Assembly (NCBI GenBank): GCA_020975725.1 | Contig: QXJR01000028.1 | Span: 742,974-806,973, forward strand | Direction of reading: 5' to 3' | Source of the DNA: Picocystis sp. L7 | Lineage: Eukaryota > Chlorophyta > Picocystophyceae > Picocystales > Picocystaceae | Length of the DNA stretch: 64,000 nucleotides | Part shown: positions 6,343-49,123 of the stretch, piece after piece | How positions within the stretch are numbered: position 1 is the first letter of the stretch | How the letters are laid out: each line of letters begins with the position of its first letter | Program-made: the position numbers and the translations under genes | The notes under the pieces: model-generated | Told to the model about the DNA's origin: nothing | The model's input: only the letters and a program-made list of their open reading frames with translations | Database searches by the model: none

Positions 6343-6643
6343 GGTTTTCCACCTCGCCCACGGCCTTGTCTTCAGCGCCTCTTCCGCCTCGAAGCGCGTG
6401 CAGTGCGGCTCGAGAGCATCGTCCAGTCGGTTTCGGACGCCTCGACGCACGTACGTCTTTGGTTTCGGAAGGGTTCGAACCCGGCGGGCTTTCCCTTTCG
6501 AAAGGGCGTTTGGGTTTCCAACGAAAAGGGAAGTCGGCTTCCTTCGAAAGGCCGTCGCGTGGATGGCCCGGATTGTTTTCGATCCAGTTAAGTCGAGCGG
6601 ACGTAGGAGGGGGGGATGGACGGACCTCGAAGGAGGAGGAGAC
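6343..6643. other. 5' flank of DHHC gene up to MULE element 1
   Basis: 300 bp between the DHHC start and the left end of element 1. The minus-strand frame is open across it but lacks an ATG. The right 11 bases (6633-6643, GAGGAGGAGAC) are the left copy of the target duplication of element 1. Confidence 0.5.
6633..6643 (+). repeat. Target-site duplication of element 1, left copy
   Basis: GAGGAGGAGAC, 11 bp, repeated exactly at 15073-15083. This is the direct footprint of MULE insertion. Confidence 0.9.
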
Positions 6644-7340
6644 GGTTGCGACTGAAAAATGGTCCCCCCCAGGGGCTGAATTTTGGGCCCCCCCCCTCCA
6701 GATGCACTTTCGAACAGATGCACCCCATGCGATCGACTTAACCCATTGTTTACGAAGAGACCGGTTCGACCCGGGTGGAAAGGGGACCCTTCCTTACTGT
6801 GCTTCCCAATCGATCGGAAAACTTCGACCGATCGAATCGACGACCACCCCCAACGATAGGTGTAGGTCACCCAGATCGATCGTGCAGAAAACGACGACCG
6901 ATCCTTCGGATGCGACGACGTGGCGTGCGAGAAGCGGCTGGACGCGACGACGATGGAAGGAAGACGGAGTTTTGAAGACAAGGAAAGGTGGAGATGCAGT
7001 AAAAGAAGGAGAAGGGTGGCAGCAGAGGAGGTGGGAGGAAGACACGTGCGAAGACGAGCGTGCCTCCGCAGCACGATTCCGAGGCTCGGCCACGGAATCG
7101 TCCTGCACAGGCATGCCTTGGGGTGGGGTGGGGGTTCAAATGGACCCTCCAGGTGGCGGGAACGACGTGGCGCAGGTGCGACAGGGCGGGGCTGCAGTGG
7201 GTCGCGTGAGCAAGTGTTGCCAACCGAGGCGACGTGGAAACGAAGGTGGGAGGAAAAGAAAAAAGATGCAGCCGTCCGACTCGTCCTACGTCTATTCAGC
7301 AAGAGTTTCTTCTCCAGGGGAATCCTTTGAGGGAACCAAG
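6644..7340 (+). repeat. Left TIR of MULE element 1
   Basis: 697 bp, inverted copy of 9484-9980 plus 14873-15072. GC-rich, with two C runs in its outer 60 bp (near 6662-6670 and 6688-6698). The transposase stop codon (7292) lies inside it. Confidence 0.92.
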
Positions 7341-9430
7341 CCGTCCACGCCAGCTTTCAAGCGCTTCAAGCGTAAAGCATTGCTAGCCTCCCTCGCTTTT
7401 TGCTTCTTTGTACGTTCACGCTGATGATGAAGCTTCAACTGTTCAAATTTGCTGTATTGTAGGACCTTTGCATGGTCCGGTACCTTCAAGTCGTTGCACT
7501 CGACTTTAATAGCTAGGGAATGTTTGCAGATGCCCTTGTCTTGGAAGTTGTGGCAAGTGCAATTCTTCCCAAGCACAACCCACTTGGATGTGCGGCTGAA
7601 AAAGCTTTCCATGCACTCGTGTTGGGGGGGAAGTAGACCTTTTTCAAACAAGGCTGTAGATTCCTCACGTAGTACATTCTGTAGTTGTAAATCGACTTCC
7701 TCCATCATTTCTTCTGTGGCCATACTTGAGTGAACCATTAAATTTTTCATAGAGTCGATGGCTCTTTCTCTGGCGATTAACAATGCATCGTCTAGTATTG
7801 CCTTTGATGGAAATAGGGTAAATTCACCTACTATTTGGCGGAGTGTCCAATCACTGCACATCATGAATTGGTTGACTTTTTCCCAGAGCTTGACAGACGC
7901 GAGTGATGCACCATGCGGATGAAACTCATACTCTCGCATCTTCTCACGCACAAGTGAGGAAATTGCATGTGTAAGAGGTAGCAGTGCCTTGTGGATGTCC
8001 ATCCTCCTTTGAGTAGACCTACTTGGCATATGAACCCTCTTAAAGGTATTATTATTGCTCTCATGTCCTTGATTGCTTACGGGGTATCCAGGTGGTGCAT
8101 CACAACGGCCCCAATACTGAAAAGGGCCACCATACGTCGACCTCCACCAACTTATGAACTTTTCGTGCTTGGAAAATTCATGCTCAAACTTTTCTAGCAA
8201 GATTTCCTTCACCTCTTTGCTTGTGGCGTATGAAATACGCTTGACATAGCTACCAATCAATGTGCCAGTACATGGTGGAATGTGGTATCGCTTGAAGGCT
8301 TGTTGAAGATTGCCGTCCACCCGAGAGAGATGTGCGTAGCAATCTTGTTGATGCCAAGTATATCCTCTTAAGTTAAAGAAGTTTTGCACACCTGCATGAA
8401 GCCCTGCACCGGCATCCTTGAGGACGTAGATATCATCGAAGAAGCCCTCTGCAGAATCACCCATTAGCATCCAGAATGATTGTAAGTGAAAGGTTGTACT
8501 TTCCATGCTCTCGGTTGGTACAATGCTGTAAATGATAGGAAACCAATGTCCTGCTCCATCCGTGATTCCGCTTGCTAACAAGATCAGCATGTCATTCGTG
8601 AAAATCCTAAATGTCGCATCGATTGTCATCTGTCTAGCCATCCCCGTAGCAATGGACTTCTTTGCCCAATCTACCATTTGAGGAGTTGAGAAGCTCATCA
8701 TCAATGATTTGAGAAAGTCTTGCTCGCCCATTTCATGTGCCAAATTGTAGTCAACGATGAAACATTCATCTTTGCTGTAGCTCTTGCTCTCCCTCCAAAG
8801 ATTTTCTTCAACGAACCTTTCAAAACCTCCTACGGTATTGGAAGGGGTGCGGCCTTTCCTTTGATAGGATAAAAAGTTTTTAATTTGCTTCTTTGTGATA
8901 CCTTCCAAGTCATATCCATTAAGCTCTAATTGGCGCATAATTTTTGGTACCACAATGTCGCTGTCCACAAAACTAAGCAATGTCACCTTCAATTTGTGTG
9001 GAAGCCCGGACGAAGTCCTTCTATGAGGAACCTCATCATGAACATGGGATCCCTTTGTCAGCAAAACAAGTTGACCTAAGTCGTTGCGTATTAACTTTAG
9101 CTCCGCTTTGCAATGGCACTCCTTAGTGGCATTGCAACACCATTTTTTCAAGAGAAGGTTCTCATCTTTGTCACGACGAGGCAATTTGTGCTTGAGACTC
9201 TTCGGCTTCTTCACTATCCACTTCCCAATCGCATCACTTTGGTGTTGCAACAATTCCTTGGACACCCAATCTTTCTCGCTTTGAGACAAGGATGTGCATC
9301 CCAATGCCCCTTGCATGGAGCATTGTGAAGACTCAACCCATTCCTCATGGAGGGGATCATGTCCCTCCTCATCATGAAGCGATTCAAATGACCTTTCTCG
9401 CGAAGGGCAAGGCGAATTTGCAACTTCCAT
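7292..9430 (-). CDS. Mutator-like (MULE) transposase of element 1
   Basis: 712 aa, intact from ATG at 9430. The N-terminal third carries a zinc finger of the WRKY-GCM1/FLYWCH type (a WCCNATKECHCKAE cysteine cluster followed by SHVH). The central MULE DDE domain has Asp271 (TIDATFRIF), Asp339 (VLKDAGAGLH), the DCYAHLSRVDGNLQQA block with the C/D(2)H motif shared by MuDR and hAT transposases, and Glu457 (SNQGHESNNN). A SWIM zinc finger follows (CTCHNFQDKGICKHSLA), then a basic tail (RERTKKQKAREA). It cuts and pastes the element by its TIRs. Its base composition is visibly AT-rich compared with host genes and with its own TIRs. The stop lies 48 bp inside the left TIR; the start is 53 bp short of the right TIR. 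Confidence 0.93.
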   Translation of the reverse strand: MEVANSPCPSRERSFESLHDEEGHDPLHEEWVESSQCSMQGALGCTSLSQSEKDWVSKELLQHQSDAIGKWIVKKPKSLKHKLPRRDKDENLLLKKWCCNATKECHCKAELKLIRNDLGQLVLLTKGSHVHDEVPHRRTSSGLPHKLKVTLLSFVDSDIVVPKIMRQLELNGYDLEGITKKQIKNFLSYQRKGRTPSNTVGGFERFVEENLWRESKSYSKDECFIVDYNLAHEMGEQDFLKSLMMSFSTPQMVDWAKKSIATGMARQMTIDATFRIFTNDMLILLASGITDGAGHWFPIIYSIVPTESMESTTFHLQSFWMLMGDSAEGFFDDIYVLKDAGAGLHAGVQNFFNLRGYTWHQQDCYAHLSRVDGNLQQAFKRYHIPPCTGTLIGSYVKRISYATSKEVKEILLEKFEHEFSKHEKFISWWRSTYGGPFQYWGRCDAPPGYPVSNQGHESNNNTFKRVHMPSRSTQRRMDIHKALLPLTHAISSLVREKMREYEFHPHGASLASVKLWEKVNQFMMCSDWTLRQIVGEFTLFPSKAILDDALLIARERAIDSMKNLMVHSSMATEEMMEEVDLQLQNVLREESTALFEKGLLPPQHECMESFFSRTSKWVVLGKNCTCHNFQDKGICKHSLAIKVECNDLKVPDHAKVLQYSKFEQLKLHHQRERTKKQKAREASNALRLKRLKAGVDGLVPSKDSPGEETLAE

Positions 9431-9483
9431 CGATTCCTACGAGGCCATCAAAACATTCGTTAGACAAGACTTCAGGGCCTTCC

Positions 9484-9980
9484 CTTGGTTCCCTCAAAGG
9501 ATTCCCCTGGAGAAGAAACTCTTGCTGAATAGACGTAGGACGAGTCGGACGGCTGCATCTTTTTTCTTTTCCTCCCACCTTCGTTTCCACGTCGCCTCGG
9601 TTGGCAACACTTGCTCACGCGACCCACTGCAGCCCCGCCCTGTCGCACCTGCGCCACGTCGTTCCCGCCACCTGGAGGGTCCATTTGAACCCCCACCCCA
9701 CCCCAAGGCATGCCTGTGCAGGACGATTCCGTGGCCGAGCCTCGGAATCGTGCTGCGGAGGCACGCTCGTCTTCGCACGTGTCTTCCTCCCACCTCCTCT
9801 GCTGCCACCCTTCTCCTTCTTTTACTGCATCTCCACCTTTCCTTGTCTTCAAAACTCCGTCTTCCTTCCATCGTCGTCGCGTCCAGCCGCTTCTCGCACG
9901 CCACGTCGTCGCATCCGAAGGATCGGTCGTCGTTTTCTGCACGATCGATCTGGGTGACCTACACCTATCGTTGGGGGTGG
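9484..9980 (-). repeat. Right TIR of MULE element 1, inner part
   Basis: The inner 497 bp of the right TIR, cut by the copia insertion at 9980/9981. The outer 200 bp resume at 14873. Confidence 0.92.
9976..9980 (+). repeat. 5-bp target duplication of copia element, left copy
   Basis: GGTGG, repeated at 14868-14872. Joining the flanks across one copy restores the sequence found in the left TIR of element 1. Confidence 0.9.
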
Positions 9981-10287
9981 TATTGAGAAAAGGGGTGCAG
10001 GATCCCTCTGTGGGAGTTTATTCTCTACCGCAGACGAGGACGTCGTCCCCGAGAACCAAGCCGTGTCCGTGCTCGCCTCATCATGCGCGTGACTTAACTT
10101 TGATGAAATACCACCCACTATATGTACTGAGTGGGTTAATGCATGTGTTACACTCTCTGGTATCCACGTCGAGCAACCCCTTGAGCCGCCACGCCATCGT
10201 CCCATCCATCGTCCGAAACCGCCACGCTCGGTTCGGCCAGGGGATTTCAGACCCCCTTTTCAGGCAGGACAGACGAGTCTCACAATA
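9981..10287 (+). repeat. 5' LTR of copia element
   Basis: 307 bp, starts TATTGAGAAAAG and ends CTCACAATA, identical by eye to 14561-14867. It contains a TATA-like CTATATG at about 10118-10124, a plausible promoter for the genomic transcript. Confidence 0.95.
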
Positions 10288-10302
10288 GGTTAAGAGCCTT
10301 GC
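10288..10302 (+). other. Primer-binding site, likely tRNA-Lys(CUU) anticodon-stem primer
   Basis: GGTTAAGAGCCTTGC abuts the 5' LTR. Its complement GCAAGGCTCTTAACC equals, as I recall it, the anticodon stem-loop of plant tRNA-Lys(CUU), where CTCTTAA holds the CUU anticodon. It does not match the CCA end of a tRNA: no TGG follows the LTR. This points to priming by an internally cut half tRNA, as known for Drosophila copia with initiator tRNA-Met. Confidence 0.6.
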
Positions 10303-10341
10303 AAGCTCGTTTTTCAGCGAAGTAAAGCTTCGAAAACAAAA

Positions 10342-13300
10342 ATGGCGTCCAACCAAACCCTAGAATCCGTGGATCGGGATGGAATCCCCGAGCTAAGCAA
10401 CACGAATTGGCCGGAATGGTCCTACAAGATGAAAAATAGCCTCATCTTGATGGACCTTTGGGACTATGTGGATCAAGAACCCCGACTTTCAACAACCAAT
10501 GCCGAGCATTACACATCCGACGACCTTGAGAAGGTCAGAATCGCCACAAAGGCGCAAGCTCGTATCCTCATGAGAGTGCCGCATTGTTTCAAAGGGATCC
10601 TTGAAGGGTGCACAACGGCGAAGAGCATATGGGAAAAGCTCCAATCCCTTTACAAGCAACAATCGCTCTCTCGGACTTCTCACCTCCTCAAGACACTCCA
10701 CAACATACGGATGGAAGACAAGGAGCAATCGGATGACTTCATCAAGCGAGTCACAAGTCTTGCAAGCGAGCTCCGAGACAATGGTTACGACATTGGTGAA
10801 ATGGCCATATGCACGGCCATACTCAACGGCTTGCCATCTCAATACTCCATGATCAAACATGTGGTTGAAAATGACCATCAAGAACTCAACATCGAGAATG
10901 TCCGCAATGCAATATTGCGATTCGAGTCCACGGAGTTTAGCGGAAAGGCAATGACAGCCTCCTCCACCAAAGGGAAGCCCAGAAAATCAAGACCATTTTG
11001 CACATATTGCAAATTTCATGGACACGTCCGTTCCGAGTGTCGCAAACTGAAGAAAAAGAACAGCCAAGGTGGAAAACATCAAACACCTGGACAGAATGAG
11101 GTGTTGGAAGCTCAACATGGGCCCAAACGTGAAGAGAGTCCAATTGGATTCTCCCTCACGGCCATCGGCACCACGCATCCAAGCATGCCAAGACAAAATG
11201 GTCTCACAGCCCATTCCTCTACACCATCAGGCATATCACTCTCTTCAAGTGGCAGCTTAAGCATGGAGAACACCTGGATCATTGATTCTGGTGCCTCATT
11301 TCATATGACAGGTGATCCCGGCTTGATTGACCCAGCAACTCGTCAAACAGCCCATGTGGCAATCACATGTGCCAACGGGCAGCAGTTAACAAGTGAATTT
11401 AAGGGAAACAGTGTGATTAGATCAAAAACAGGCACACCTGTGCGCCTCACAAATGTTTACTACATCCCTGGTTTTGCACACAACCTGTTTTCAGTACCTG
11501 CTGCCACAAAGGCAGGGGCCCAGGTCCTATTCACCCATGGGACCTGCAGGGTGGAATGTGCAAAAGGGGTCATCGAGACTACCCCGAGTGCTGACCACGT
11601 CTATGCCCTGGTGACTACCGCTCAGCGATGGCATGAACGCCTTGGGCACGCAAGTGCACCCCGGCCGAAGCTCCTTGGATTGCCCCACAAGCTAGACGGG
11701 GCCTGTGAATCCTGTATCCAAGCGAAGCAGACTGCTCAACCATTTCGCCCCAGTAACTATACCTATGAGCCCTTGGATCTGGTCTATACAGACCTTGTCG
11801 GACCCATACCAGAAACTCCAGGTGGACAGACTTACTATTTGTCCTTATATGACCAGGCTTCCAAAGCAAGCCTGGTGTTTCTCTTACCCAACAAGTCCAG
11901 TGCATCAGGTGCGCTGATGGAAGGAATCAACACATTCGAGAAAATCGCAAAAGCAGGCTACAGGGTGAAAGCCATACGATCAGATCTGGGATCAGAATTT
12001 CAGTCAAATGCATTGCAAAAGTTCCTCAAAGATCGAGGAATCACGCATGAAACAACAGCAGGATACACGCCTCAGCAAAACGCTGCTGAACGATTGCACA
12101 GAACGCTTCATGACAGCGCCCGTGCAATGCTCATCCGTGCAGGACTCCCTGAAACTCTCTGGGGAGAGGCTGTGCGCTGTGCCAATTTTGTGCGTAATCG
12201 CACACCAGTCTCCCTTGCCTTGGATGGCAAAACACCACTGGAAGTATTGACGGGCACCTTGCCCAACTTGAACCAATTCCGCACCTTTGGGTGCGATGCC
12301 TGGGTCCTCATACCTCCTGAGAAGCGAAGCAGCAAATTCAGCGCAAGGTCAGTGAAAGGCACATTCATCGGCTATCACAACAGCTCCACTTACCGCGTCC
12401 TGGTGGACAACAAAATTGCTCTCAGCAGAAACGTGAGCTTTGTGGAAGACAAATTCAGCAGTCAGTCAATGAACCAAAGCCAAACACCCGACAGCGCACA
12501 GGTCGTCCCAGACCTGCTCCCTGAACCTCCACAGTTCAGCCAATCATCTGCAGCAAGTATGGATGGACCTCCAGGGTCACATCAGGCATCACCACCAGTC
12601 AGTGAGTCGCAAACAACCATCCAGCAGGATGGTGCAGCAGCAGAAAACTCGCAGTTGCTGCCTGAAGACGGCAGCAGCACGCCCACAGCTGCTTGTCCAA
12701 ACAATGCTCCAGGTGTGTCCTTCACACCTCCTGAGCATCATGAAAGTGTTGAGGAAGCCACTCTTGTGGCTAAAGAAGCTCCCTCAGCACTCCCAGAACC
12801 TGGCCATCCGCAAGCAGTGGAACCCAAGTCCATCCATCCAGCAGCTCCAGCGCATCCATACAACCTGCGTCCAAGAAAAGGCAGCGCCATGAGAGCGAAA
12901 GCAACGCGTCAGTGGGAGCTTGACGACAGCTTTTCCGGTTACGCTCGCGCCATGGCTCGTCCAGACGCCGAGCTCTGGCAACACGCCATCACCGACGAGC
13001 TCACCTCTTTGGCCAAGAACGGCACTTGGCGCCTGGTCACTCTCCCTCCTGGTCGCACCCCCTTGACCACCACGTGGGTGTTCAAGGTGAAGACCGACGG
13101 CGACGGTCAGGTGGAGCGCTACAAAGCCCGCCTGTGCGTGCGTGGCTTCGAGCAGCGTGCAGGAGTGGATTTCCACGAGGTGTTTGCCCCCACCTCGGGC
13201 AAAGTGGCTCAAAGGGCCTTTCTCACCTATGCAGCCCTGGTTAACTATGAGGTTCAGCAGGTGGACATCAAGACCGCTTTCCTCAACGCAGAACTGAACG

Positions 13301-14547
13301 AGGAAATTTACCTCGAGATCCCTGAGGGACTGAGGGACGACCGACAACTTAACCAGGAACCGAACCTGGTACTTAAACTGGAGAAGTCCCTCTATGGATT
13401 GAAGCAGGCCCCCAGAATGTGGTATCAGCACCTCACAAACACATTGAAGAAGGAACTAGGATTCCAATGCAACTCTGTGGATGACACCATCCTCAAGTGC
13501 AAGCATCAGAAAACTGGCAAGGAGTGCCTCATCCTAGTGTATGTGGATGACCTGCTGGTTGCTGCTCAAGATCTCAATACCACCCAGGCAGTGATAGATA
13601 CCATCTGCAGGCACTATGATGCCAGAGACCTGGGTGCAGCCTCCTTCTTCTGTGGCATGAAGATTAACAGAGACAGAAACAAGAAGTTAATCTATCTCAG
13701 TGAACCTGACAAGATCCAGAAGTTAATCAAGCAGTTTAACATGGAGGACTGCAAAACCAAGAAGATTCCCTTGGATGTGGTGTTAACCAGTGAAAAGGAT
13801 GGTGAACCCTGCGACACCACGGAGTACCAAATCCTTGTTGGGAGTCTACTCTACCTCTCAACTACTACCAGACCAGACCTCTGCCAAGCTGCCTCACAAC
13901 TGTCCAGATTCATGGCTTGTCCCACTAAGTACCACCTCAAGGCAGCCAAAGGGGTACTCAAGTACTTAAAAGCAACAGTTAACCATGGTCTGTGTCTGGG
14001 GGATCGCCTCGATATCCTGTCTGAAGATCTCGATCAAGCAATCGATACCTTTACCCTTACTGGCTACTGTGATGCAGACTATGCCACGGACAAGGAAACC
14101 AGAAAGTCCAGAACAGGATATCTTTTCTTACTGAATGGAAGCCTTATCTCATGGCAGAGCAAGCTTCAATCTACTGTATCAACCTCCACAACAGAGGCTG
14201 AGTATCAATCGGCATCGAGTGCCGTCAAAGAGGCACTCTGGTTAAAAAACCTGCTTTCTGACTTAACAAGTGGCAGTTTAAACAAACAGGTAGTCACCTA
14301 CTGTGACAATCAGGCATGCATCAAGATCTTGGACAACAACCACAGCATGCAGAAAACCAAGCATATTGATGTGGCCCATCACTTCGTCCGCGAGCGGGTC
14401 ATGTTCGGCGATATCACGTTCCGATATTGCGAAAGTGCGGAGATGTTGGCTGACTACTTAACTAAAAATTCAAATCAGCAAACATTTTGGAAGTGCATTA
14501 CAAGGCTTGGTATAACTCCAATCATATCAAGAGATGCCACAAACTGA
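10342..14547 (+). CDS. Copia Gag-Pol polyprotein
   Basis: 1401 aa, one uninterrupted frame from ATG. Order: Gag of the UBN2 type (about 40-200); zinc knuckle C-x2-C-x4-H-x4-C at 220-233; aspartic protease (Asp315 in IIDSGASFHMTG); integrase with an HHCC-type zinc region (His436, Cys455, Cys458) and catalytic Asp484, Asp548 and Glu583; a low-complexity Pro/Ser/Gln linker (about 710-840); reverse transcriptase starting near WVFKVK with YVDD at 1067-1070; RNase H with Asp1244 (GYCDADYATD). Integrase before reverse transcriptase marks it as Ty1/copia rather than Ty3/gypsy. The protein packages the element's RNA, copies it and inserts the DNA. Nothing is broken or missing in the domain set. Confidence 0.96.
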   Translation: MASNQTLESVDRDGIPELSNTNWPEWSYKMKNSLILMDLWDYVDQEPRLSTTNAEHYTSDDLEKVRIATKAQARILMRVPHCFKGILEGCTTAKSIWEKLQSLYKQQSLSRTSHLLKTLHNIRMEDKEQSDDFIKRVTSLASELRDNGYDIGEMAICTAILNGLPSQYSMIKHVVENDHQELNIENVRNAILRFESTEFSGKAMTASSTKGKPRKSRPFCTYCKFHGHVRSECRKLKKKNSQGGKHQTPGQNEVLEAQHGPKREESPIGFSLTAIGTTHPSMPRQNGLTAHSSTPSGISLSSSGSLSMENTWIIDSGASFHMTGDPGLIDPATRQTAHVAITCANGQQLTSEFKGNSVIRSKTGTPVRLTNVYYIPGFAHNLFSVPAATKAGAQVLFTHGTCRVECAKGVIETTPSADHVYALVTTAQRWHERLGHASAPRPKLLGLPHKLDGACESCIQAKQTAQPFRPSNYTYEPLDLVYTDLVGPIPETPGGQTYYLSLYDQASKASLVFLLPNKSSASGALMEGINTFEKIAKAGYRVKAIRSDLGSEFQSNALQKFLKDRGITHETTAGYTPQQNAAERLHRTLHDSARAMLIRAGLPETLWGEAVRCANFVRNRTPVSLALDGKTPLEVLTGTLPNLNQFRTFGCDAWVLIPPEKRSSKFSARSVKGTFIGYHNSSTYRVLVDNKIALSRNVSFVEDKFSSQSMNQSQTPDSAQVVPDLLPEPPQFSQSSAASMDGPPGSHQASPPVSESQTTIQQDGAAAENSQLLPEDGSSTPTAACPNNAPGVSFTPPEHHESVEEATLVAKEAPSALPEPGHPQAVEPKSIHPAAPAHPYNLRPRKGSAMRAKATRQWELDDSFSGYARAMARPDAELWQHAITDELTSLAKNGTWRLVTLPPGRTPLTTTWVFKVKTDGDGQVERYKARLCVRGFEQRAGVDFHEVFAPTSGKVAQRAFLTYAALVNYEVQQVDIKTAFLNAELNEEIYLEIPEGLRDDRQLNQEPNLVLKLEKSLYGLKQAPRMWYQHLTNTLKKELGFQCNSVDDTILKCKHQKTGKECLILVYVDDLLVAAQDLNTTQAVIDTICRHYDARDLGAASFFCGMKINRDRNKKLIYLSEPDKIQKLIKQFNMEDCKTKKIPLDVVLTSEKDGEPCDTTEYQILVGSLLYLSTTTRPDLCQAASQLSRFMACPTKYHLKAAKGVLKYLKATVNHGLCLGDRLDILSEDLDQAIDTFTLTGYCDADYATDKETRKSRTGYLFLLNGSLISWQSKLQSTVSTSTTEAEYQSASSAVKEALWLKNLLSDLTSGSLNKQVVTYCDNQACIKILDNNHSMQKTKHIDVAHHFVRERVMFGDITFRYCESAEMLADYLTKNSNQQTFWKCITRLGITPIISRDATN

Positions 14548-14560
14548 TCCTGAGTGGGAG
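14546..14560 (+). other. Putative polypurine tract of copia element
   Basis: GAGTGGGAG ends immediately before the 3' LTR at 14561, where plus-strand priming is expected. It is short and imperfect. Confidence 0.45.
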
Positions 14561-14867
14561 TATTGAGAAAAGGGGTGCAGGATCCCTCTGTGGGAGTTTA
14601 TTCTCTACCGCAGACGAGGACGTCGTCCCCGAGAACCAAGCCGTGTCCGTGCTCGCCTCATCATGCGCGTGACTTAACTTTGATGAAATACCACCCACTA
14701 TATGTACTGAGTGGGTTAATGCATGTGTTACACTCTCTGGTATCCACGTCGAGCAACCCCTTGAGCCGCCACGCCATCGTCCCATCCATCGTCCGAAACC
14801 GCCACGCTCGGTTCGGCCAGGGGATTTCAGACCCCCTTTTCAGGCAGGACAGACGAGTCTCACAATA
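14561..14867 (+). repeat. 3' LTR of copia element
   Basis: 307 bp, identical by eye to the 5' LTR, followed by the second GGTGG copy. Confidence 0.95.
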
Positions 14868-14872
14868 GGTGG

Positions 14873-15072
14873 TCGTCGATTCGATCGGTCGAAGTTTTCC
14901 GATCGATTGGGAAGCACAGTAAGGAAGGGTCCCCTTTCCACCCGGGTCGAACCGGTCTCTTCGTAAACAATGGGTTAAGTCGATCGCATGGGGTGCATCT
15001 GTTCGAAAGTGCATCTGGAGGGGGGGGGGCCCAAAATTCAGCCCTTTGGGGGGCCATTTTTCAGTCGCAACC
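14873..15072 (-). repeat. Right TIR of MULE element 1, outer part
   Basis: The outer 200 bp of the right TIR, displaced by the copia insertion. It ends CAGTCGCAACC and is followed by the GAGGAGGAGAC duplication. It includes a G run near 15017-15028. Confidence 0.92.
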
Positions 15073-15755
15073 GAGGAGGAGACGCCCGTTCCCGACCGTT
15101 CCGGTGGGTCCACCGGGTTCGATTCCCGATCGATCGGGTTCAGAAGGGGGACGCGTCCCCCGTTCGATTGGAAGGATGGGAACCTTTCGAATCGGAACAA
15201 GGAGATGCTCTTCCCTTCCTCGGGATCGAGCGGGTCGTGTGTGGGGTGGAGAACCCGGGCACCCCGTCCTCGTCCGCACACGTCGTCTTTCCCTCCATCC
15301 TGCGGAGGTCCATCCCACGCCCTTTCCCGTCTCGAGACCTGGACCCGCAGAGGCGCTCCGTCCCCACCCGCGAGGGCTTCTCTTCTCCCCGTCTCCCGGT
15401 TCAAGGATTCCCTTCTGTCCCGATCAAGCCCTCGGGTCTGAAAGGGAACGCATGACGGTTAGGGTTTCGGTTGGACCGGCGATGGCGGCGGATCCATCGC
15501 TTCGAACGACGCCATTCACACGCGTGCTTCGCTCGCGAACGGTGCGTGCTGCGCGCGAATCGAGGCTCCAGGAGCGCCGTCGGACGGTCCAGGCGTGTTC
15601 CCATCCCGACAGCACCGAAGCACGGAAGAAAGCACGCGAGGGAAGGCGTGGAGGCTGACAAGAAGCGGACGGTGGTGCAGACGAAAGGAACGACACGTGG
15701 CCAGGACACGCGCCGTAGTATTCGTTTCGGAGGCGATCGCGAACGCACGGTCGGG
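15073..15755. other. 5' flank of the enolase gene
   Basis: Starts with the right copy of the element 1 target duplication (15073-15083). A short ATG frame at 15482-15658 (58 codons, Arg-rich) precedes the enolase ATG in another frame. I cannot tell whether it is a uORF, a 5' exon or noise. Confidence 0.4.
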
Positions 15756-18638: not shown

Positions 18639-18704
18639 CGCGACGAGGCGTGGTCCCGCGTTCCCGCCAAAACGACCGATGGGGGGGGGGGACGAAGGGG
18701 AATT

Positions 18705-18718
18705 CTACCCCCCCCCCC
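18705..18718 (+). repeat. CTA + 11 C: left target duplication of element 2
   Basis: CTA followed by 11 C directly precedes element 2. The same CTA followed by 12 C directly follows it at 22508-22522. The 14-base match exceeds the usual 9-11 bp, as expected if the C tract slipped after insertion. Confidence 0.8.
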
Positions 18719-19416
18719 GGTTGTGGCTGAATTTTGACCCCCCCCTTGGCTGAATTTCGACCCCCCCCCCCCTTTCGTAAACTTTGTCGATGTTTATCGA
18801 GGGACGGCCCCCCGAACCGTGGGAAAGGGACCCCCCTCTGGATCCACCGCAGATCGGCGCTTAAAATCGAACTTAACCACACAGAGCCAGGGAGGCAGAG
18901 GTGGAACCCCTGACCACCGACCAGGGCCGATCCAGAAAGAAAAAAGATCGGCCGACGCCGACATCGGAACACGTGTGGTGCGTCGGAACGGGCGCGCGAG
19001 GTGCACCGTTTCGAACCACCACACGTGAACGCGTGCAGAGGGAGGAGAAGAAGGAGAAGAAGGAAGGGACGAGGAGGAAGCGCTGCGAAGAGGGACAGGA
19101 GGGCTGGGTGACGACCTGCTCTTGGGACGACATCGTCCTGCCCAAGAACAGGTCGTCTCCCCTACCAGGCTCGAAAGGGGGGTGGAAAGGGGATGGCAGG
19201 GACCGTGGAAACGTGCGGGACGAGGACGCTGGAGCGTGGCCGGTCGGGATGGGGGACGCGACCACGTGGCTCGAGGGGGTGCAGGACGGCCGTCGGTGGA
19301 CCACAGGGACCGCCGTGGGAGCGTGCGCGTGCTAGCAAACCGTGCTGTGGGGAGTTGCTCCAGCACCGCTTGCTACCAATCGCAAGGAAACAGGGGCGAG
19401 GTACCGTCAAGCCTGG
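18719..19416 (+). repeat. Left TIR of MULE element 2
   Basis: About 698 bp, inverse of 21811-22507, nearly identical by eye except for C-run lengths and scattered single changes. GC-rich. Confidence 0.9.
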
Positions 19417-19495
19417 AGTGAGGGAAGGAGTTATGATGACGAGCCTGACCGACTTGCTCATGAAAGGTTCGATATTAAACGAACGCTGATTCTGC

Positions 19496-21715
19496 CTATG
19501 TCTCTAGAGACTCATTGCTTGGGTTGTCGACGAATGCCTGGCTTGCTTGCAAGGTCTCCAGTTCTTCAAGGCCCACCTTGAATCTTTTCTTTCTTTGCTG
19601 GTGGCTGGAAAGCGTAGCTCTTTGCTTCCTGGTCAGGTCTTTCACATATTGCAGCTTCATAATTTGGGTCCTCGATCGTTGGAGAATCCTCTGATCTTGA
19701 GGAAATACCCGTACACCGTTGTGCACTTGTAGAGCCAAGATGTGCTTGCACAAACCACAACCTATGTAATCGAAACAAGTGCACGTATCCTTGACCACTA
19801 TCCATTTTGCTTTCCTCTCGCAATATTGTGAAAGACTTTCTCGCTTTGAAGGTTCCAATCCACAAGTGATGTGCTTGTGAGCTTCCTTGAAGAGCAATTT
19901 TTGTACTTGTGCCTCACATTCTTGAAGAAATTCTTGCTCTACGACTTTAGAATGAAACAACCCCTTTTGAACTACTTCCTTTGCAATACTTTGCGCTTCT
20001 CCATACACATGTTGAAGGAAGTTGTTTGATGGTAGCAATACACAATCATCAACCTCTTGCCGGAGGGCCCAATCAGCACTTAGTAGGAGCAAGTCCACAT
20101 CTTCCCACATTGTCCTTCGAATAACCAATTGACGCTCGTTTGAAAAGGTGTATTCCCGCATTTTTTCACGTACCAATGATCCAATTCCTACCATGAGCGG
20201 TTTGAAGGCCTTGTGCACATCTAGCCGCCTCTGTGTGGCTCTGCTTGGCATATGTACCGTCTTAAAAGTTCGATTGTTGCTCTCATGTCCTTGGTTGCTC
20301 ACCGGGAATCCGTGTGGTGCATCGCAACGAGCCCAGTTTTTGAATGGTCCACCATAAGTACTCTTCCACCATTTCTTGAAGGCTTCGTATTTGGCGCACT
20401 CTTGTTCAAATTTATCCAACAATTCCTCCTTCACTTGCTTGGTTGGACTAAAAGATATGTGTTTGATGTATCCGGCAATTACTGTCGCGCTATTTGTCGG
20501 CACTCCATACTTTTTGCAAGCTTGCTGTAGATTTCCATCCACTCGGCTCAAGTGCGCATAACAGTCCTGCTGATGCCAAGCCAACTGTCTTTCATTGAAA
20601 AATGCCTGGATTCCTGAGTGCAAACCTGCACCTGCATCTTTCAAAATGTAAATACCATCGAAAAATCGTTCAGCATCAACTGAGAGGATGTTCCAGATTG
20701 AATTCAAATGAAAAACTGTGGTAGCTTGACTCTCAACAGGAACAATGCTATAGAGGATTGGAAACCAATGATTACCACCATCAGTGACTCCGCTTGCCAT
20801 GAGTATGAATCGGTCACCGGTGAAAACTTTGAAAGTTGCATCTATCGTGAATTGCTTTGCGTTGTTTGTTTCACATAATGCTCTTGCCCATTCTACCATT
20901 TGAGGGCATGAGAAGCTCACTTTGAATTCTTGAAAAAAAGATGCTTCATCAACTTCAAGTGGCAAACACCAATCGACAACGTATACTTCATCCTTTTGGT
21001 ACGATTTGCTTGCATCATAAGAGTTCATCTCAAGCAAATGTTTGATGTCTTGAATGCTACCTTGACAACCATTTTTTTGCCTTTGATACACCAAGAAATT
21101 TCTTAACATCTTCTTTGTGATGCCGTCCACAATTAGCCCTTCCTTCTCAAGTTGTTGCATTATCCGCGGAACACGTAAATCACTATCAACATATTTGACC
21201 AATTCCACTCGAATACCCAATGGAAGGCCTTTCTTGGTCTTTGAACAAGGAAGCATGCATTGACTATGGTCATGTTTGTCCTTCGAGAGCAAAGCCAAAT
21301 GTCCACTACTTTTTCTTATCAAAATTGCCTTGGCCGTACAACCACTACTTTCAGCTCCATTACAAACCCATCTTTCCATGAGAAGACAATCATCATGAGT
21401 TCTACGAGGATACTTTCCTTTTTTCTTTCCTTTCGAGGTCTTTTTCTTCCATTTTCCCACCACATCAGGTTGAAGAGCTTGCAAATTTGACTTAAGCCAA
21501 TCTTGCTCAACTTCACAAAGATGAATACATCCTTGTCGGCACACATCACACCTCGCCCCTTCTTTCCAATCCTTGAATTCAACACAACCATCGGGATCGG
21601 ATACGATTTGAACCGCTGTGTCTACTCCACAAGTCCCGCTCATTAGCATAGGCAGGCCGTGTGCGCTGCCCGAACCCCCGTCCAACATTTCCTCGCGCCC
21701 CTTGTCGTGCCCCAT
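19496..21715 (-). CDS. Mutator-like (MULE) transposase of element 2
   Basis: 739 aa from the ATG at 21715. The frame is open for 130 more codons to 22105, but that part is right-TIR sequence and unlike the other two transposases, so the internal ATG is preferred. Domains: a Cys/His cluster (CDVCRQGCIHLC) with a WRKY-GCM1/FLYWCH-like finger (VCNGAESSGCTAK...HDHSQC); MULE catalytic core (TIDATFKVF, ILKDAGAGLHSG, DCYAHLSRVDGNLQQA, SNQGHESNNR); and a SWIM finger (CTCFDYIGCGLCKH). The coding sequence is strikingly AT-rich against its GC-rich TIRs. It is clearly diverged from the element 1 and 3 transposases, so these are separate lineages, not recent copies of one another. No frameshift or stop is seen. 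Confidence 0.92.
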   Translation of the reverse strand: MGHDKGREEMLDGGSGSAHGLPMLMSGTCGVDTAVQIVSDPDGCVEFKDWKEGARCDVCRQGCIHLCEVEQDWLKSNLQALQPDVVGKWKKKTSKGKKKGKYPRRTHDDCLLMERWVCNGAESSGCTAKAILIRKSSGHLALLSKDKHDHSQCMLPCSKTKKGLPLGIRVELVKYVDSDLRVPRIMQQLEKEGLIVDGITKKMLRNFLVYQRQKNGCQGSIQDIKHLLEMNSYDASKSYQKDEVYVVDWCLPLEVDEASFFQEFKVSFSCPQMVEWARALCETNNAKQFTIDATFKVFTGDRFILMASGVTDGGNHWFPILYSIVPVESQATTVFHLNSIWNILSVDAERFFDGIYILKDAGAGLHSGIQAFFNERQLAWHQQDCYAHLSRVDGNLQQACKKYGVPTNSATVIAGYIKHISFSPTKQVKEELLDKFEQECAKYEAFKKWWKSTYGGPFKNWARCDAPHGFPVSNQGHESNNRTFKTVHMPSRATQRRLDVHKAFKPLMVGIGSLVREKMREYTFSNERQLVIRRTMWEDVDLLLLSADWALRQEVDDCVLLPSNNFLQHVYGEAQSIAKEVVQKGLFHSKVVEQEFLQECEAQVQKLLFKEAHKHITCGLEPSKRESLSQYCERKAKWIVVKDTCTCFDYIGCGLCKHILALQVHNGVRVFPQDQRILQRSRTQIMKLQYVKDLTRKQRATLSSHQQRKKRFKVGLEELETLQASQAFVDNPSNESLET

Positions 21716-21810
21716 CGCTACTTTTCCGTCGCGGTCTGTAGTGTCACTCCCCACTTGCGGACAACACCCTCTGCCTCGTCCCTGTTTAAATAACCCAGAG
21801 GGCGGCAAAC

Positions 21811-22507
21811 CCAGGCTTGACGGTACCTCGCCCCTGTTTCCTTGCGATTGGTAGCAAGCGGTGCTGGAGCAACTCCCCACAGCACGGTTTGCTAGCACGC
21901 GCACGCTCCCACGGCGGTCCCTGTGGTCCACCGACGGCCGTCCTGCACCCCCTCGAGCCACGTGGTCGCGTCCCCCATCCCGACCGGCCACGCTCCAGCG
22001 TCCTCGTCCCGCACGTTTCCACGGTCCCTGCCATCCCCTTTCCACCCCCCTTTCGAGCCTGGTAGGGGAGACGACCTGTTCTTGGGCAGGACGATGTCGT
22101 CCCAAGAGCAGGTCGTCACCCAGCCCTCCTGTCCCTCTTCGCAGCGCTTCCTCCTCGTCCCTTCCTTCTTCTCCTTCTTCTCCTCCCTCTGCACGCGTTC
22201 ACGTGTGGTGGTTCGAAACGGTGCACCTCGCGCGCCCGTTCCGACGCACCACACGTGTTCCGATGTCGGCGTCGGCCGATCTTTTTTCTTTCTGGATCGG
22301 CCCTGGTCGGTGGTCAGGGGTTCCACCTCTGCCTCCCTGGCTCTGTGTGGTTAAGTTCGATTTTAAGCGCCGATCTGCGGTGGATCCAGAGGGGGGTCCC
22401 TTTCCCACGGTTCGGGGGGGCGTCCCTCGATAAACATCGACAAAGTTTACGAAAGGGGGGGAGGGTCGAAATTCAGCCAAGGGGGGGGTCAAAATTCAGC
22501 CACAACC
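21811..22507 (-). repeat. Right TIR of MULE element 2
   Basis: About 697 bp, ends CAGCCACAACC at 22507. The inner border is at the CCAGGCTTGACGG match with 19404-19416. Confidence 0.9.
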
Positions 22508-22522
22508 CTACCCCCCCCCCCC
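22508..22522 (+). repeat. CTA + 12 C junction between elements 2 and 3
   Basis: Serves as right duplication of element 2 and, through its C run (22511-22522), as left duplication of element 3. No other sequence separates the two elements. Confidence 0.85.
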
Positions 22523-23182
22523 GGTTGCGACTGAATTTTGGCCCCCCCCTCGACTGAATTTTCACCCCCCCCCAGATGCACCCTCGTTTGGGAAGATCAC
22601 ACCCTTGTCCCACGAGTTAAGTCGAAGGGGGACTCCGATCGATCCCCGCGGGAATGGAAGGGATCGAAACAGAAGGGAGAGGTCCAACCCATAGGACTTC
22701 GGGTCGATTGGGAATGGACCGGGTTCGACGTACCCATCGAAACCAAGGGAAAAAGGACCAAGACCCGAATCACAGCCCCAGATCCAGACGAAGAAAAAAG
22801 ACCGACGCATCGGTACGGATCGGAACGCGACGCGGCGTTCGTCGCGGGCAGAGGACGCGCAGCAGGTCAAGACGCCGCAGACGAAGAAGGAAGAGCACCT
22901 GGATGGGCAAGACGCGTCAAGCCATGCGGAAAGGACGCGGGAAAACGAGTGTGGGAAAACGTGGGAGCGTGCGAATGCACGGCACATCTGTGGCTCTGCC
23001 ATCGATGGGCCCTGCACTCGCACCCAACTCGACTGGGTTGGACACCCCTGGGTACCTCGTCACGGTAGGGGAGGGGGCGAAAAGGGGGCGAACACCAACG
23101 TGGGGGGAGGACGACGAAGACACACCAACGCGACTGCAACGACGGGACGGATCGAACGTGACGAGGACAGGACGGATCGAAC
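22523..23182 (+). repeat. Left TIR of MULE element 3
   Basis: About 660 bp, inverse of 25641-26301. C runs sit in its outer 55 bp. It ends in two copies of a GACGGATCGAAC motif. Confidence 0.9.
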
Positions 23183-23292
23183 GTGAGAGGAAGGCTGTGA
23201 ATGCTAGGATATTTGGAACCACCCATAGAGTGAAGGAGAATGAACAATACACTTTACAGTCGTAGGTATTCGTAGCACTAAGTGATGGACAA

Positions 23293-25371
23293 TCAAGTTC
23301 CTTGGAAGTTATGTTCTAGTATCCCTTCTTTGAAGCGCTTCTTGCGTTGGAGGTTGGCTGCCTCTCTTGCTTTTTGCTTCCTGGTACGCTCTTGCTCATA
23401 AGTCAGTTTTAAACGATCGAATTTGGAATGCTTCAGCAGTCTTGCGTTGATTGGAATCTGAAGCTCATTGTTGTGGACTCTTCGAGCTAGGGAATGCTTG
23501 CAAACACCTTTATCTTGAAATGTGTAACAAGTACAAGTTGTACCAAGCATCACCCAAGCACTTGTGCGTTCAAAGAACTTTTGTAGTGTTTCATTAGGAT
23601 GAGGCAACAGTCCTTTCTCACAAAAGTTGCTTGCCTCTTCAAACAACAACTTGTGCATTTGTAAGTCCATCTCTTCCACCAATTCTTTGCTTGCATCTAA
23701 TGAGTGGATCATCAATTCCTTGAATTGTGTAGATGTTCGCTGAATCGCCAATTTCATGGTGGATTCTATTGTTCTTTTCGATGGGAACAATGCAAGGTCC
23801 TTCACTTCTTGTCGGAGAAACCAATCCGTGCACATCATGAATTGGTCTACTTCTTCCCATAATTTGAGTGGCAATGATGACTCATTTGTGTGACCACACC
23901 GATACTCTCTTTCTTTTTCTCTCACCAAAGATGAGATTGCTTTCTTTAAAGGCACAACTGATTTATGGAGGTCGATTCTTCGTTGCGTACATCTACTAGG
24001 CATGTGTACCTTCTTCAAGGTGTTGTTGTTACTTTCGTGACCTTGGTTGCTAACTGGATACCCTTCGGGTGCGTCACATCTAGCCCAATTCTTGAATGGC
24101 CCTCCATAAGTTGATTTCCACCACCTCATGAAGTCCTTGTGCTTCTCAAACTCTCTCTCAAACATTTCCATCAACACCTCTCGAACTTCTTTACTTGGTG
24201 AGTATGAGATTTGCCTCACTACTCCGGCAATGTAAACTCCGATGGCACTTGGTACTTGGTACTTCTTGAATGCTTGTTGCAAGTTGCCATCGACTCGACT
24301 CAAGTGTGCATAACAATCTTGTTGATGCCATTTGCATCCCTTCGAATTGAAGAAAGAGTGCACACCTGAGTGGAGTCCTGAACCTGCATCTTTCAACACA
24401 TAAACACCATCAAAAAAAGCACTCGCATCTTCTCCCAACAAGTCCCAAAATGAATTCAAGTGGAAGGTGGTTGTAATTGTACTTTCTCCCGGCACAATGC
24501 TATAAAGTATTGGGAGCCAATGCCCTTGTGGATTTGTGAAACCACTTGCCATTAAGATATGCTCATCCCCTGTAATTATCTTGAATGTCGCATCAATCGT
24601 AATTTGCCTAGTTCCACCCCTTTCCATGCATTCTTTCAACCATGTGACCATTAATGGGCATGAAAAACTGATCATCAATGTTTTCAACGTATCTTCATCT
24701 GAGAATTCGTCGACAATTTCATGATTGACCACAAAGCACTCGTCCTTGGCATAGCTTTTGTTTTCCATGTGGACATCCTCTTTGATGCTCTTGATAAAAT
24801 CTCCGAGCTTGTTGCTGCTTGCAAGTAGCGTCCGCTTGTAATTCAAAAAGTTCTTCACTTGCTTCTTTGTGGCTCCTTCCAACTCGAATCCCGAACTCTC
24901 TAGGTGGCAAATAATTTTCGGGACAATCAAATCGCTTTCCACAAATTTCAATAGCTCTAGTTTGATTTTACGAGAGAGACCGTCTTTTCTACCTTTTGGA
25001 ATCTTCTCGATTTCATGATTGTGCGCACCTTTCGAGAGCAATACAAGGTTCCCTTGGGGTTCTCTTTGCATCAATGCTTGAGCTTTGCATCCGCATACAC
25101 ACGATGCATTGCATACCCATCTTCCCAATTTGGCGACTCCATCCAAACCAAGGATTGGGTACTTGGCCTTTGCAGCACCCTTTGAGCTTTGCTTGACCCA
25201 CTTGGCCAAGCTATCCCCTTGCAACTTGGAAAGCTCTACTGTCAACCATTGTTGTTCCTGATCACAAAGGTGAAGGTGCCCCTGCCCATGGAAAATTGGA
25301 CACGTTGCCCTTCTCACCCACTCGGATGGCAACACTGTCTCCGGGGTTGGACATGCCACGGATGTATCCAT
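23293..25371 (-). CDS. Mutator-like (MULE) transposase of element 3
   Basis: 692 aa from the ATG at 25371 (MDTSVACPTPETV). The open frame reaches a non-ATG codon at 25419. Layout matches the other two: zinc finger of WRKY-GCM1/FLYWCH type (RWVCNASCVCGCKAQ then HNHE), DDE core (TIDATFKII, VLKDAGSGLHSG, DCYAHLSRVDGNLQQA, SNQGHESNNN), and SWIM finger (CTCYTFQDKGVCKHSLA). A basic RERTRKQKAREA-like tail is also shared with element 1, to which it is closer than to element 2. Strongly AT-rich codons. No break seen, so it could supply transposase in trans. Confidence 0.92.
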   Translation of the reverse strand: MDTSVACPTPETVLPSEWVRRATCPIFHGQGHLHLCDQEQQWLTVELSKLQGDSLAKWVKQSSKGAAKAKYPILGLDGVAKLGRWVCNASCVCGCKAQALMQREPQGNLVLLSKGAHNHEIEKIPKGRKDGLSRKIKLELLKFVESDLIVPKIICHLESSGFELEGATKKQVKNFLNYKRTLLASSNKLGDFIKSIKEDVHMENKSYAKDECFVVNHEIVDEFSDEDTLKTLMISFSCPLMVTWLKECMERGGTRQITIDATFKIITGDEHILMASGFTNPQGHWLPILYSIVPGESTITTTFHLNSFWDLLGEDASAFFDGVYVLKDAGSGLHSGVHSFFNSKGCKWHQQDCYAHLSRVDGNLQQAFKKYQVPSAIGVYIAGVVRQISYSPSKEVREVLMEMFEREFEKHKDFMRWWKSTYGGPFKNWARCDAPEGYPVSNQGHESNNNTLKKVHMPSRCTQRRIDLHKSVVPLKKAISSLVREKEREYRCGHTNESSLPLKLWEEVDQFMMCTDWFLRQEVKDLALFPSKRTIESTMKLAIQRTSTQFKELMIHSLDASKELVEEMDLQMHKLLFEEASNFCEKGLLPHPNETLQKFFERTSAWVMLGTTCTCYTFQDKGVCKHSLARRVHNNELQIPINARLLKHSKFDRLKLTYEQERTRKQKAREAANLQRKKRFKEGILEHNFQGT

Positions 25372-25640
25372 CCTTCTGAAATCGCAATGCCCGGTCAACA
25401 CTTCTAGCCCCTTTGTCAAAATGGAAGAGCCCCGAAATCAACCTGTCGACCCCCCTGTGCAAACTCGCGACCTTGCTCGTACAGCAACCGTGGCGACTTG
25501 GTTTGTACGACCCACTTTAGGACCCCCGTTTTGAACAACCTTTTTGGCGGGAAAGAATCGCTGCCGATGCAGGTACCCACGATGTACTTTGACTCGACGA
25601 CTCCTTCGGACAGTTGCGCTACCTTACCCAGAGTCGGCTA

Positions 25641-26301
25641 GTTCGATCCGTCCTGTCCTCGTCACGTTCGATCCGTCCCGTCGTTGCAGTCGCGTTGGTG
25701 TGTCTTCGTCGTCCTCCCCCCACGTTGGTGTTCGCCCCCTTTTCGCCCCCTCCCCTACCGTGACGAGGTACCCAGGGGTGTCCAACCCAGTCGAGTTGGG
25801 TGCGAGTGCAGGGCCCATCGATGGCAGAGCCACAGATGTGCCGTGCATTCGCACGCTCCCACGTTTTCCCACACTCGTTTTCCCGCGTCCTTTCCGCATG
25901 GCTTGACGCGTCTTGCCCATCCAGGTGCTCTTCCTTCTTCGTCTGCGGCGTCTTGACCTGCTGCGCGTCCTCTGCCCGCGACGAACGCCGCGTCGCGTTC
26001 CGATCCGTACCGATGCGTCGGTCTTTTTTCTTCGTCTGGATCTGGGGCTGTGATTCGGGTCTTGGTCCTTTTTCCCTTGGTTTCGATGGGTACGTCGAAC
26101 CCGGTCCATTCCCAATCGACCCGAAGTCCTATGGGTTGGACCTCTCCCTTCTGTTTCGATCCCTTCCATTCCCGCGGGGATCGATCGGAGTCCCCCTTCG
26201 ACTTAACTCGTGGGACAAGGGTGTGATCTTCCCAAACGAGGGTGCATCTGGGGGGGGGGGGGAAATTCAGTCGAGGGGGGGGCCAAAATTCAGTCGCAAC
26301 C
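25641..26301 (-). repeat. Right TIR of MULE element 3
   Basis: About 661 bp, ends CAGTCGCAACC at 26301. Confidence 0.9.
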
Positions 26302-26313
26302 CCCCCCCCCCCC
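26302..26313 (+). repeat. 12-C junction between elements 3 and 4
   Basis: Exactly 12 C between the CAACC end of element 3 and the GGTTG start of element 4. Confidence 0.9.
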
Positions 26314-26530
26314 GGTTGTGGCTTAATTTTGACCCCCCCCGGTGCTGAATTTCGACCCCCCCCCCCCTTTTCGTAAACTTTGTCGATGTTTATCGAGGGA
26401 CGGCCCCCCCACGAACCGTGGCAAAGGGACCCCCCTCTGGATCCACCGGAGATCGTAGGATCCAACCCATGGGAACGCGACGGGGCCCGACCCAAGCGGA
26501 AATCCATGGAGCGATCGAACAAGACCGAAC
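26314..26530 (+). repeat. Left TIR of element 4
   Basis: About 217 bp, inverse of 26988-27202, starting GGTTGTGGCTTAATTTTG. Confidence 0.88.
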
Positions 26531-26987
26531 TAGTTTGTAAGAAGATCGACCGAGGCCAACACCGGATCACGTGTGGTGGGTCGGAACGGACGTATGAGAT
26601 GCACCCTTTCGAATCACGACACGTGCATCGGAGAAGAATTAGGAAGGAACGGAGACGGATTGAGGAATTGAGGTAAAGAGGATGGAACGGTGAAAAGTAG
26701 GGAAGATACCTACATTTGCGAAGACATCGTCTTACATATGGTCAGGTTGTCTCCCACGTGGCCCTCGAGGGTGGAGTGGAGGGGATGGACGACAACGTGG
26801 GGTCCGAGGACAATGCTCTTCTCGACCCTCTCGGACGCCATATGACCACCAATCTTCCTATCCCCTTCTTCGTCGATTTCCTACACGTCCATGATTATGC
26901 TCGAGACAACGCCATTTCCGTGGCCTCCGTTGGCACCTGTTTCATCGAATGAGTCGGCTTGTAGACTTGGCACGTCGCTTGCTCGTG

Positions 26988-27202
26988 GTTCGGTCTTGTT
27001 CGATCGCTCCATGGTTTTCCGCTTGGGTCGGGCCCCGTCGCGTTCCCATGGGTTTGATCCTACGATCTCCGGTGGATCCAGAGGGGGGTCCCTTTGCCAC
27101 GGTTCGTGGGGGGGCCGTCCCTCGATAAACATCGACAAAGTTTACGAAAAGGGGGGGGGGTCGAAATTCAGCACCGGGGGGGGTCAAAATTAAGCCACAA
27201 CC
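26988..27202 (-). repeat. Right TIR of element 4
   Basis: About 215 bp, ends TTAAGCCACAACC. Confidence 0.88.
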
Positions 27203-27214
27203 CCCCCCCCCCCC
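27203..27214 (+). repeat. 12-C junction between elements 4 and 5
   Basis: Exactly 12 C between the end of element 4 and the GGAAGCGACTG start of element 5. Confidence 0.9.
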
Positions 27215-27340
27215 GGAAGCGACTGAAAAATGGTCCCCCAAGGGGCTGAATTTCGGTCCCCCCCCCCTCCAGATGCACTTTCGAACAGATGCACCCCACT
27301 CGATCGACTTAACCCAGTGTTCACAAAGGGAAGACGGGGA
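27215..27340 (+). repeat. Left TIR of element 5
   Basis: About 126 bp, inverse of 27807-27931. Shares sequence with the element 1 TIR for roughly the first 115 bp. Confidence 0.88.
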
Positions 27341-27806
27341 CAATCGAAAAGAACGGAACGGCTACAAACAAGAAGGTCGATTCGACACCAACAAAATTGT
27401 CAAAGGGTTCCTGCTATGGGTCATACATCACGTGGCCCGTTTGGAAGCGAATTGTACATCACGAACTCCGAAGAAGGGATGCAACATGGAGGGGTGGCAA
27501 CGCTAACTTACAGACGTTTTGTCACGGAACCACCACGTGAGGCTTCGAGATGCTTTCAACGTGGTATCCTTGAGATCGCATGAAGATCGTCTTGCATTAG
27601 TAGTGTGCAAGGATGAGAGATGTTTTGTACATCCATTTTGTTCTCCCATGAAGAACCTAGAAGGGAGGAAAACTTGCATCAACGGTGCCTTGAGACGGAA
27701 GGGAATGACCTCGTGACCACCCACTAGGTTTGTTTCCGTTCCGCGGATCCACGTTCTTCCCCGTTCCTATCCTTTCGTGCATGGTAGTTCCGTCCCTCTT
27801 CTTGTT

Positions 27807-27931
27807 TCCCCGTCTTCCCTTTGTGAACACTGGGTTAAGTCGATCGAGTGGGGTGCATCTGTTCGAAAGTGCATCTGGAGGGGGGGGGACCAAAATTCAG
27901 CCCTTTGGGGGACCATTTTTCAGTCGCTTCC
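27807..27931 (-). repeat. Right TIR of element 5
   Basis: About 125 bp, ends CAGTCGCTTCC. Confidence 0.88.
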
Positions 27932-27942
27932 CCCCCCCCCCC
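27932..27942 (+). repeat. 11-C run closing the MULE array
   Basis: Right duplication of element 5. The host flank GGGCTTGCTCC follows. Confidence 0.85.
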
Positions 27943-48824: not shown

Positions 48825-49123
48825 TGAACACTCCCGAAGGAACGAACCAAAGGGACATCGACGTTTGGATCCGACTCGATCCCAAGGTGGAGGTCGATTG
48901 GTGGATGATGGCGTCTGCGGTGGTCATGCGCGGTCGATGCACGTGGGGATGGGACGGGATCGCGCCCAAAAAGGACGGATCCGAATGGAAACACACGCGA
49001 AAGTGCGCAACGAAACAGGACAGGAAGAGGAAAAACCGACACGTGCGGATCCAGGCCAACTTCGGCGACGGTGGACGTGGCGATCGAAAGGTAAGTCGCA
49101 CACGCCGCCAAACAACGCACGCC

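Follow-up and report, generated by a model that had tools for sequence, protein, structure and literature searches.

How do four complete DNA transposons come to stand end to end in a genome with little more than a run of C between them? The question is raised by a 64,000-nucleotide stretch (the window) of the chlorophyte Picocystis sp. L7 (assembly GCA_020975725.1, contig QXJR01000028.1, positions 742,974 to 806,973), which contains no N. At 18705-27942 of this window, four complete transposons of the Mutator-like element (MULE) type, E2 to E5 (18719-27931), are arrayed end to end, none nested in another, in the order CTA+C11, E2, CTA+C12, E3, C12, E4, C12, E5, C11 (Table 1). A related element, E1, occupies a separate locus. 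An earlier sequence-only reading had listed the coordinates and C counts of the array, and re-reading of the sequence reproduced them exactly. Our analysis indicates that E1-E5 are likely to be MULE-type transposons that prefer short simple-sequence tracts, and that the array is likely to have formed by serial, self-renewing insertion into one C run.

Tract orientation separates the target from the elements. The element tips are inverted (GGTTG...CAACC; in E5 GGAAG...CTTCC), and on the same strand a C tract stands both before the left tip (C11/GGTTG) and after the right tip (CAACC/CTA+C12, CAACC/C12). Because the tract has one orientation on both sides, it is a direct and not an inverted repeat, and the C tracts are target DNA lying outside the inverted tips; the alternative that they are a piece of the terminal inverted repeats (TIRs) is ruled out, as the left flank reads C and not G. 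The longest exact direct repeats at the element ends measure 14 bp in E2 (CTA+C11), 12 bp in E3, 12 bp in E4 and 11 bp in E5. E2 thus has CTA copied along with the C run, and E1 is flanked by an exact repeat of a non-C sequence, GAGGAGGAGAC, of exactly 11 bp, within the 8-11 bp given for MULE target duplications (PMC6446971). The CTA copy at E2 and the exact flank repeat of E1 fit a staggered cut. E3-E5 lie inside pure C, where duplications of different lengths would read alike.

Serial insertion into one C run with a self-renewing landing site, as the earlier reading had proposed, is supported by these direct repeats of C and by the copied CTA. The starting site at 18.7 kb would have read CTA-C(n)-GGGC and would have been hit by four separate insertions, presumably in a cut-and-paste mode common to E1-E5. 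With a staggered cut of 11 bp, the length found at E1, every insertion would duplicate part of the C run and leave the new element with a C run on either side, long enough to serve as the next target. We modelled histories that combine target-site duplications (TSDs) of 8-12 bp for E3-E5 with 8-15 bp for E2. With run lengths held constant after insertion, only histories with 14 bp at E2 and 8, 9, 10 or 11 bp at E3-E5 fit, and the matching empty runs are C23, C20, C17 and C14. Either E2 made a 14-bp duplication, then, or the run on its left probably grew by slippage or repair; with an 11-bp cut throughout, that run would have grown by three. Such growth beyond the length expected from the cut has a precedent in maize TAFTA, whose target repeat expands after insertion (PMC5907723).

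The two TIR arms of each element preserve some trace of the order of events. Inverted-end identity is 99.6% over 698 columns in E2, 99.5% over 661 in E3, 98.2% over 217 in E4 and 93.2% over 146 in E5, corresponding to arm divergences of ~0.4%, ~0.5%, 1.8% and 6.8%. This unequal divergence suggests insertions of different age, with E5 earliest and E2 and E3 latest, an order drawn from arms that may have been homogenised and in which differences in C-run length count for more in short TIRs.

MULE TIRs are commonly hundreds of bases long. Long TIRs of this kind are present throughout the set (the left arm of E1 has 697 nt; E2, ~698; E3, ~661; E4, ~217; E5, ~146), and their comparison bears out the three families that had been proposed for the array: E2 pairs with E4 (91-92% over 140-141 columns, 78% over 315) and E5 with E1 (90-92% over 113-114 columns), and E3 is the sole member of its family among E1-E5. 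Each of the ten TIR tips carries two CTGAATTT-like units (in E2 at 18719-18772), with a C-rich run after every unit; the paired units are possible transposase binding repeats. A TIR profile search of the window returned the ten known TIRs and no others at E<1.

One long minus-strand open reading frame (ORF) is present in each of E1, E2 and E3, and the three predicted transposases are 43-53% identical, that of E2 sharing 43-46% with the other two (tblastn); E4 and E5 showed no match to a transposase. At E up to 1, a SWIM zinc finger is found in all three proteins, exceeding the Pfam cut-off in E1 only, FLYWCH in two of the three, both times under the cut-off, and the MULE domain PF10551 in one (E1; E=0.00099, scoring 19.9 bits where the cut-off is 27.6). 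In the E3 protein both SWIM (E=0.0019) and FLYWCH (E=0.0044) stay under Pfam's cut-off, and the E2 protein matches no Pfam family at E up to 0.01. SWIM zinc fingers occur in many MULE groups and FLYWCH-type fingers in some (PMC6446971). An AlphaFold model had a mean pLDDT of 44.6, too low to support fold comparison. Residues D271, D339, E457, C364 and H367 (E1 numbering) are invariant across the three transposases, and we tentatively read D271/D339/E457 as a putative DDE triad and C364/H367 as a putative CxxH motif. As judged from sequence features, MULE is the best filing for these elements, because E1-E3 have TIRs of ~660-700 nt and E1 has an 11-bp duplication; the domain match is weak by itself. 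The MULE-type assignment made earlier is supported, with TIRs, SWIM finger and the duplication length at E1 fitting it.

Relatives were sought in collections of viruses, phages, plasmids and prokaryotes, where absence says little about a eukaryotic host. For the E2 transposase no relative was confirmed in phage or viral contig collections (one pattern match in the viral set, unconfirmed), and for the E3 transposase none was confirmed among plasmids. An alignment of the three transposases gave 64 pattern matches in viral contigs and 395 in prokaryote genome contigs, of which none was confirmed, and the TIR patterns had no match in either of these two sets.

What kind of target do these elements prefer? 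All-C or all-G 11-mers make up 6 of the 46,292 background 11-mers. By a rough formula, random placement over the 46.3 kb outside the elements would put four of the five insertions into a single 20-bp site with a probability of 4e-10. C/G runs of at least 11 are over-represented in this background: three are observed, whereas 100 first-order Markov simulations averaged 0.06 and never reached three. At E1, 9 of the 11 bases of GAGGAGGAGAC lie inside an 11-bp perfect trinucleotide run, a short GGA repeat. Under a criterion chosen after E1 had been seen (at least 9 bases in a period-1-to-3 run of at least 11), 98 of the 46,292 background 11-mers (0.21%) qualify, 28 of them homopolymeric. Both independent loci of the window are simple-repeat tracts, and poly-C at the array together with GGA at E1 suggests that E1-E5 are simple-repeat-targeting MULEs that probably share this preference, with poly-C as an apparently new type of target. 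In an urn calculation in which three other C runs are equally attractive and runs inside elements are excluded, three further insertions all hit the array with a probability of 0.11; no special hotspot would then be needed, as renewal of the target could be enough to account for the stacking. A G-quadruplex had also been put forward as the recognised feature. This idea gains some support from the array site, where an equally high absolute G4Hunter score is reached by 0.6% of background windows of 25 bp and by 7.4% of those of 35 bp; the score at the E1 site is ordinary (matched by 71% and 77%, respectively) and does not support a G-quadruplex as the cause common to both loci.

Several observations weigh against this account. 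Three C/G runs of at least 11 outside the elements (18681-18691, G11; 40084-40096, C13; 52514-52525, C12), each a candidate target, are unoccupied, and so are three inside elements (18761, C12; 26250, G13; 26356, C12). The 14-bp repeat of E2 is longer than the MULE range of 8-11 bp (PMC6446971). The poly-C preference rests on one locus, whose four insertions may be non-independent, and E1, which belongs to the TIR family of E5, inserted outside poly-C. Strict poly-C targeting, as first proposed from the sequence, is not supported, given E1 in its short GGA repeat. A bolder reading holds that several MULE lineages here share a preference for poly-C/poly-G or, more broadly, for G-rich purine tracts, through an unusual DNA shape or a match to the C runs of their TIRs, with each insertion renewing the site and homopolymers acting as safe havens for stacking; we regard it as possible but doubtful.

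Other routes to the array have to account for the same junctions. A transposase acting on C-run-bearing TIRs of a resident element might capture adjoining DNA whatever its sequence, and newcomers would then land beside the first. The array elements do all adjoin one another, and all ten tips have the paired units and C-rich runs that such attraction would call on, but the duplications of the array are confined to CTA and the C run and include no base of a TIR tip, and the site is common to three families; we think this route unlikely. Nor is a generic hotspot easily reconciled with the data, in which an open, GC-rich, gene-proximal region would draw MULEs without sequence preference, a behaviour reported for maize Mu, whose insertions tend towards GC-rich DNA and open chromatin (PMC2774946). 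Genes are close by: a TPR ORF on the minus strand starts at 18638, with the array beginning 67 bp upstream of it, and E1 ends ~400 bp upstream of an enolase ORF as measured from its mechanical start; however, one short run and not just one region took the four insertions, at the random-placement figure of ~4e-10 given above, and this makes a mere hotspot quite improbable.

Homologous recombination could instead bring circular intermediates with repeat filler into the C run; this model has been proposed for the SaTar elements of plants and is labelled speculative by its own authors (PMC5907723). Such recombination would explain the modular stacking and would accommodate the 14-bp repeat of E2, a non-standard TSD. 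Acting inside the C run alone, however, it would not copy CTA beyond E2; the duplication at E1 is a clean 11 bp, and 11-12 bp is a very short homology, all of which renders the model very unlikely. Least probable of all is an assembly artefact that joined separate C-flanked elements through their C runs. Although such runs are prone to error, a 12-base overlap is probably too short for ordinary assemblers, the elements would remain C-flanked even so, and the CTA of E2's left flank recurs on its right flank. Serial insertion into a self-renewing simple-repeat target is the explanation that we favour.

The remainder of the window provides the setting for these elements. The boundaries of the Copia long terminal repeat (LTR) retrotransposon within E1 were read by eye, with ends TATTG...CAATA; a TG...CA end search found none. 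On the left flank of the array (18681-18718), G11, a 16-base spacer and C11 could form a hairpin, whose fold is no better than that of shuffled sequences (z -0.60; 52 of 200 shuffles as good), and the TIR profile matches there at E=1.8 only, which is not enough to show an old TIR remnant. Farther away are a diverged (72-73%) direct duplication spaced at ~2310 bp (35051-38199), which overlaps a ZIP transporter ORF, a block of 72-nt tandem repeats that overlaps an ORF on the minus strand (48441-48872), an ORF of DUF285 repeats in 75-nt tandem units (59227-60837; Pfam 698.6 bits) and, close to the window end, an ORF with the retroelement integrase domains Integrase_H2C2 and rve (62067-63365). A DUS3L-type protein is also encoded in the window; with the Copia element and the MULEs it points to a probably eukaryotic host. 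No Rfam family reaches its cut-off within the window.

Table 1 Coordinates of the array, of E1 and of their parts within the window.
Feature	Position	Strand	Description
E1 left target-site duplication	6633..6643	+	GAGGAGGAGAC
E1	6644..15072	-	related MULE-type element; right TIR split by Copia element
E1 transposase ORF	7292..9430	-	712 aa
Copia LTR retrotransposon	9981..14867	+	nested in E1 right TIR; 5-bp duplication GGTGG
E1 right target-site duplication	15073..15083	+	GAGGAGGAGAC
Left outer target copy	18705..18718		CTA+C11; exact direct repeat of first 14 bases beyond E2
E2	18719..22507	-	3789 bp MULE-type element; TIRs ~698 nt; transposase ORF
E2 transposase ORF	19496..22105	-	869 aa from mechanical TTG start inside TIR
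E2/E3 junction	22508..22522		CTA+C12
E3	22523..26301	-	3779 bp MULE-type element; TIRs ~661 nt; transposase ORF
E3 transposase ORF	23293..25419	-	708 aa from mechanical TTG start
E3/E4 junction	26302..26313		C12
E4	26314..27202		889 bp; E2 family; TIRs ~217 nt; without transposase match
E4/E5 junction	27203..27214		C12
E5	27215..27931		717 bp; E1 family; TIRs ~146 nt (93%); tip GGAAG; without transposase match
Right outer target copy	27932..27942		C11

Is stacking of this kind new? The sequence-only reading had suggested so, but the SaTars already provide an example: guayule gSaTar with the autonomous AgS-MULE, and rice rSaTar, form non-nested MULE arrays at microsatellites, which in that paper are repeats of 1-6 bp units (PMC5907723). 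As in E2-E5, unrelated MULE families stand there in non-nested end-to-end arrays with simple repeats at the joints; with three TIR families, an uninterrupted order and simple-repeat joints, E2-E5 share the architecture of SaTar arrays. The autonomous relatives of SaTars are repeat-flanked and are stated to join clusters too, and 11 of 15 guayule families include members with ordinary 10-bp duplications, which we liken to the elements of the window (PMC5907723). The targets differ, being mainly (TA)n plus diverse other microsatellites in SaTars and poly-C plus a short GGA repeat here, and many repeat-targeted SaTars are said to be without TSDs, whereas E2 and E1 duplicate non-repeat or mixed bases (PMC5907723).

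Other target-selective transposons offer further comparisons. MuTAnT and AutoMuTAnT of Medicago truncatula are MULEs that prefer (TA)n; like the present elements, MuTAnT is a MULE family with a simple-repeat preference, foldback-type TIRs and some copies elsewhere (14 of 218 outside perfect (TA)n, with 9-bp duplications), but its target is (TA)n, and stacked arrays are not mentioned in the available part of the source (PMC4486113). Maize TAFT/TAFTA and rice Micron likewise target simple repeats and differ in that the repeat is (TA)n (via PMC5907723, PMC4486113). Dada elements are also sequence-specific DDE DNA transposons, but constitute a separate superfamily with small RNA gene targets and 6-7 bp duplications (PMC3706591). 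No MULE with a poly-C target appeared in the titles or abstract openings of the matches listed by our literature search, whose coverage leaves out most subscription journals. The terms 'poly-C', 'homopolymer' and 'mononucleotide' are absent from the main text of PMC5907723 as available, and poly-C may hide among the diverse non-TA repeats of its figure. Stacking at simple repeats is thus already known from plants, and a C run as the landing site seems undescribed. The CTA+C target of E2 and the clean 11-bp duplication of E1 favour staggered-cut insertion over circle recombination, a question left by the SaTar paper (PMC5907723). If poly-C targeting holds genome-wide, simple-repeat targeting by MULEs would extend to a homopolymer, and the class of target would vary by lineage.

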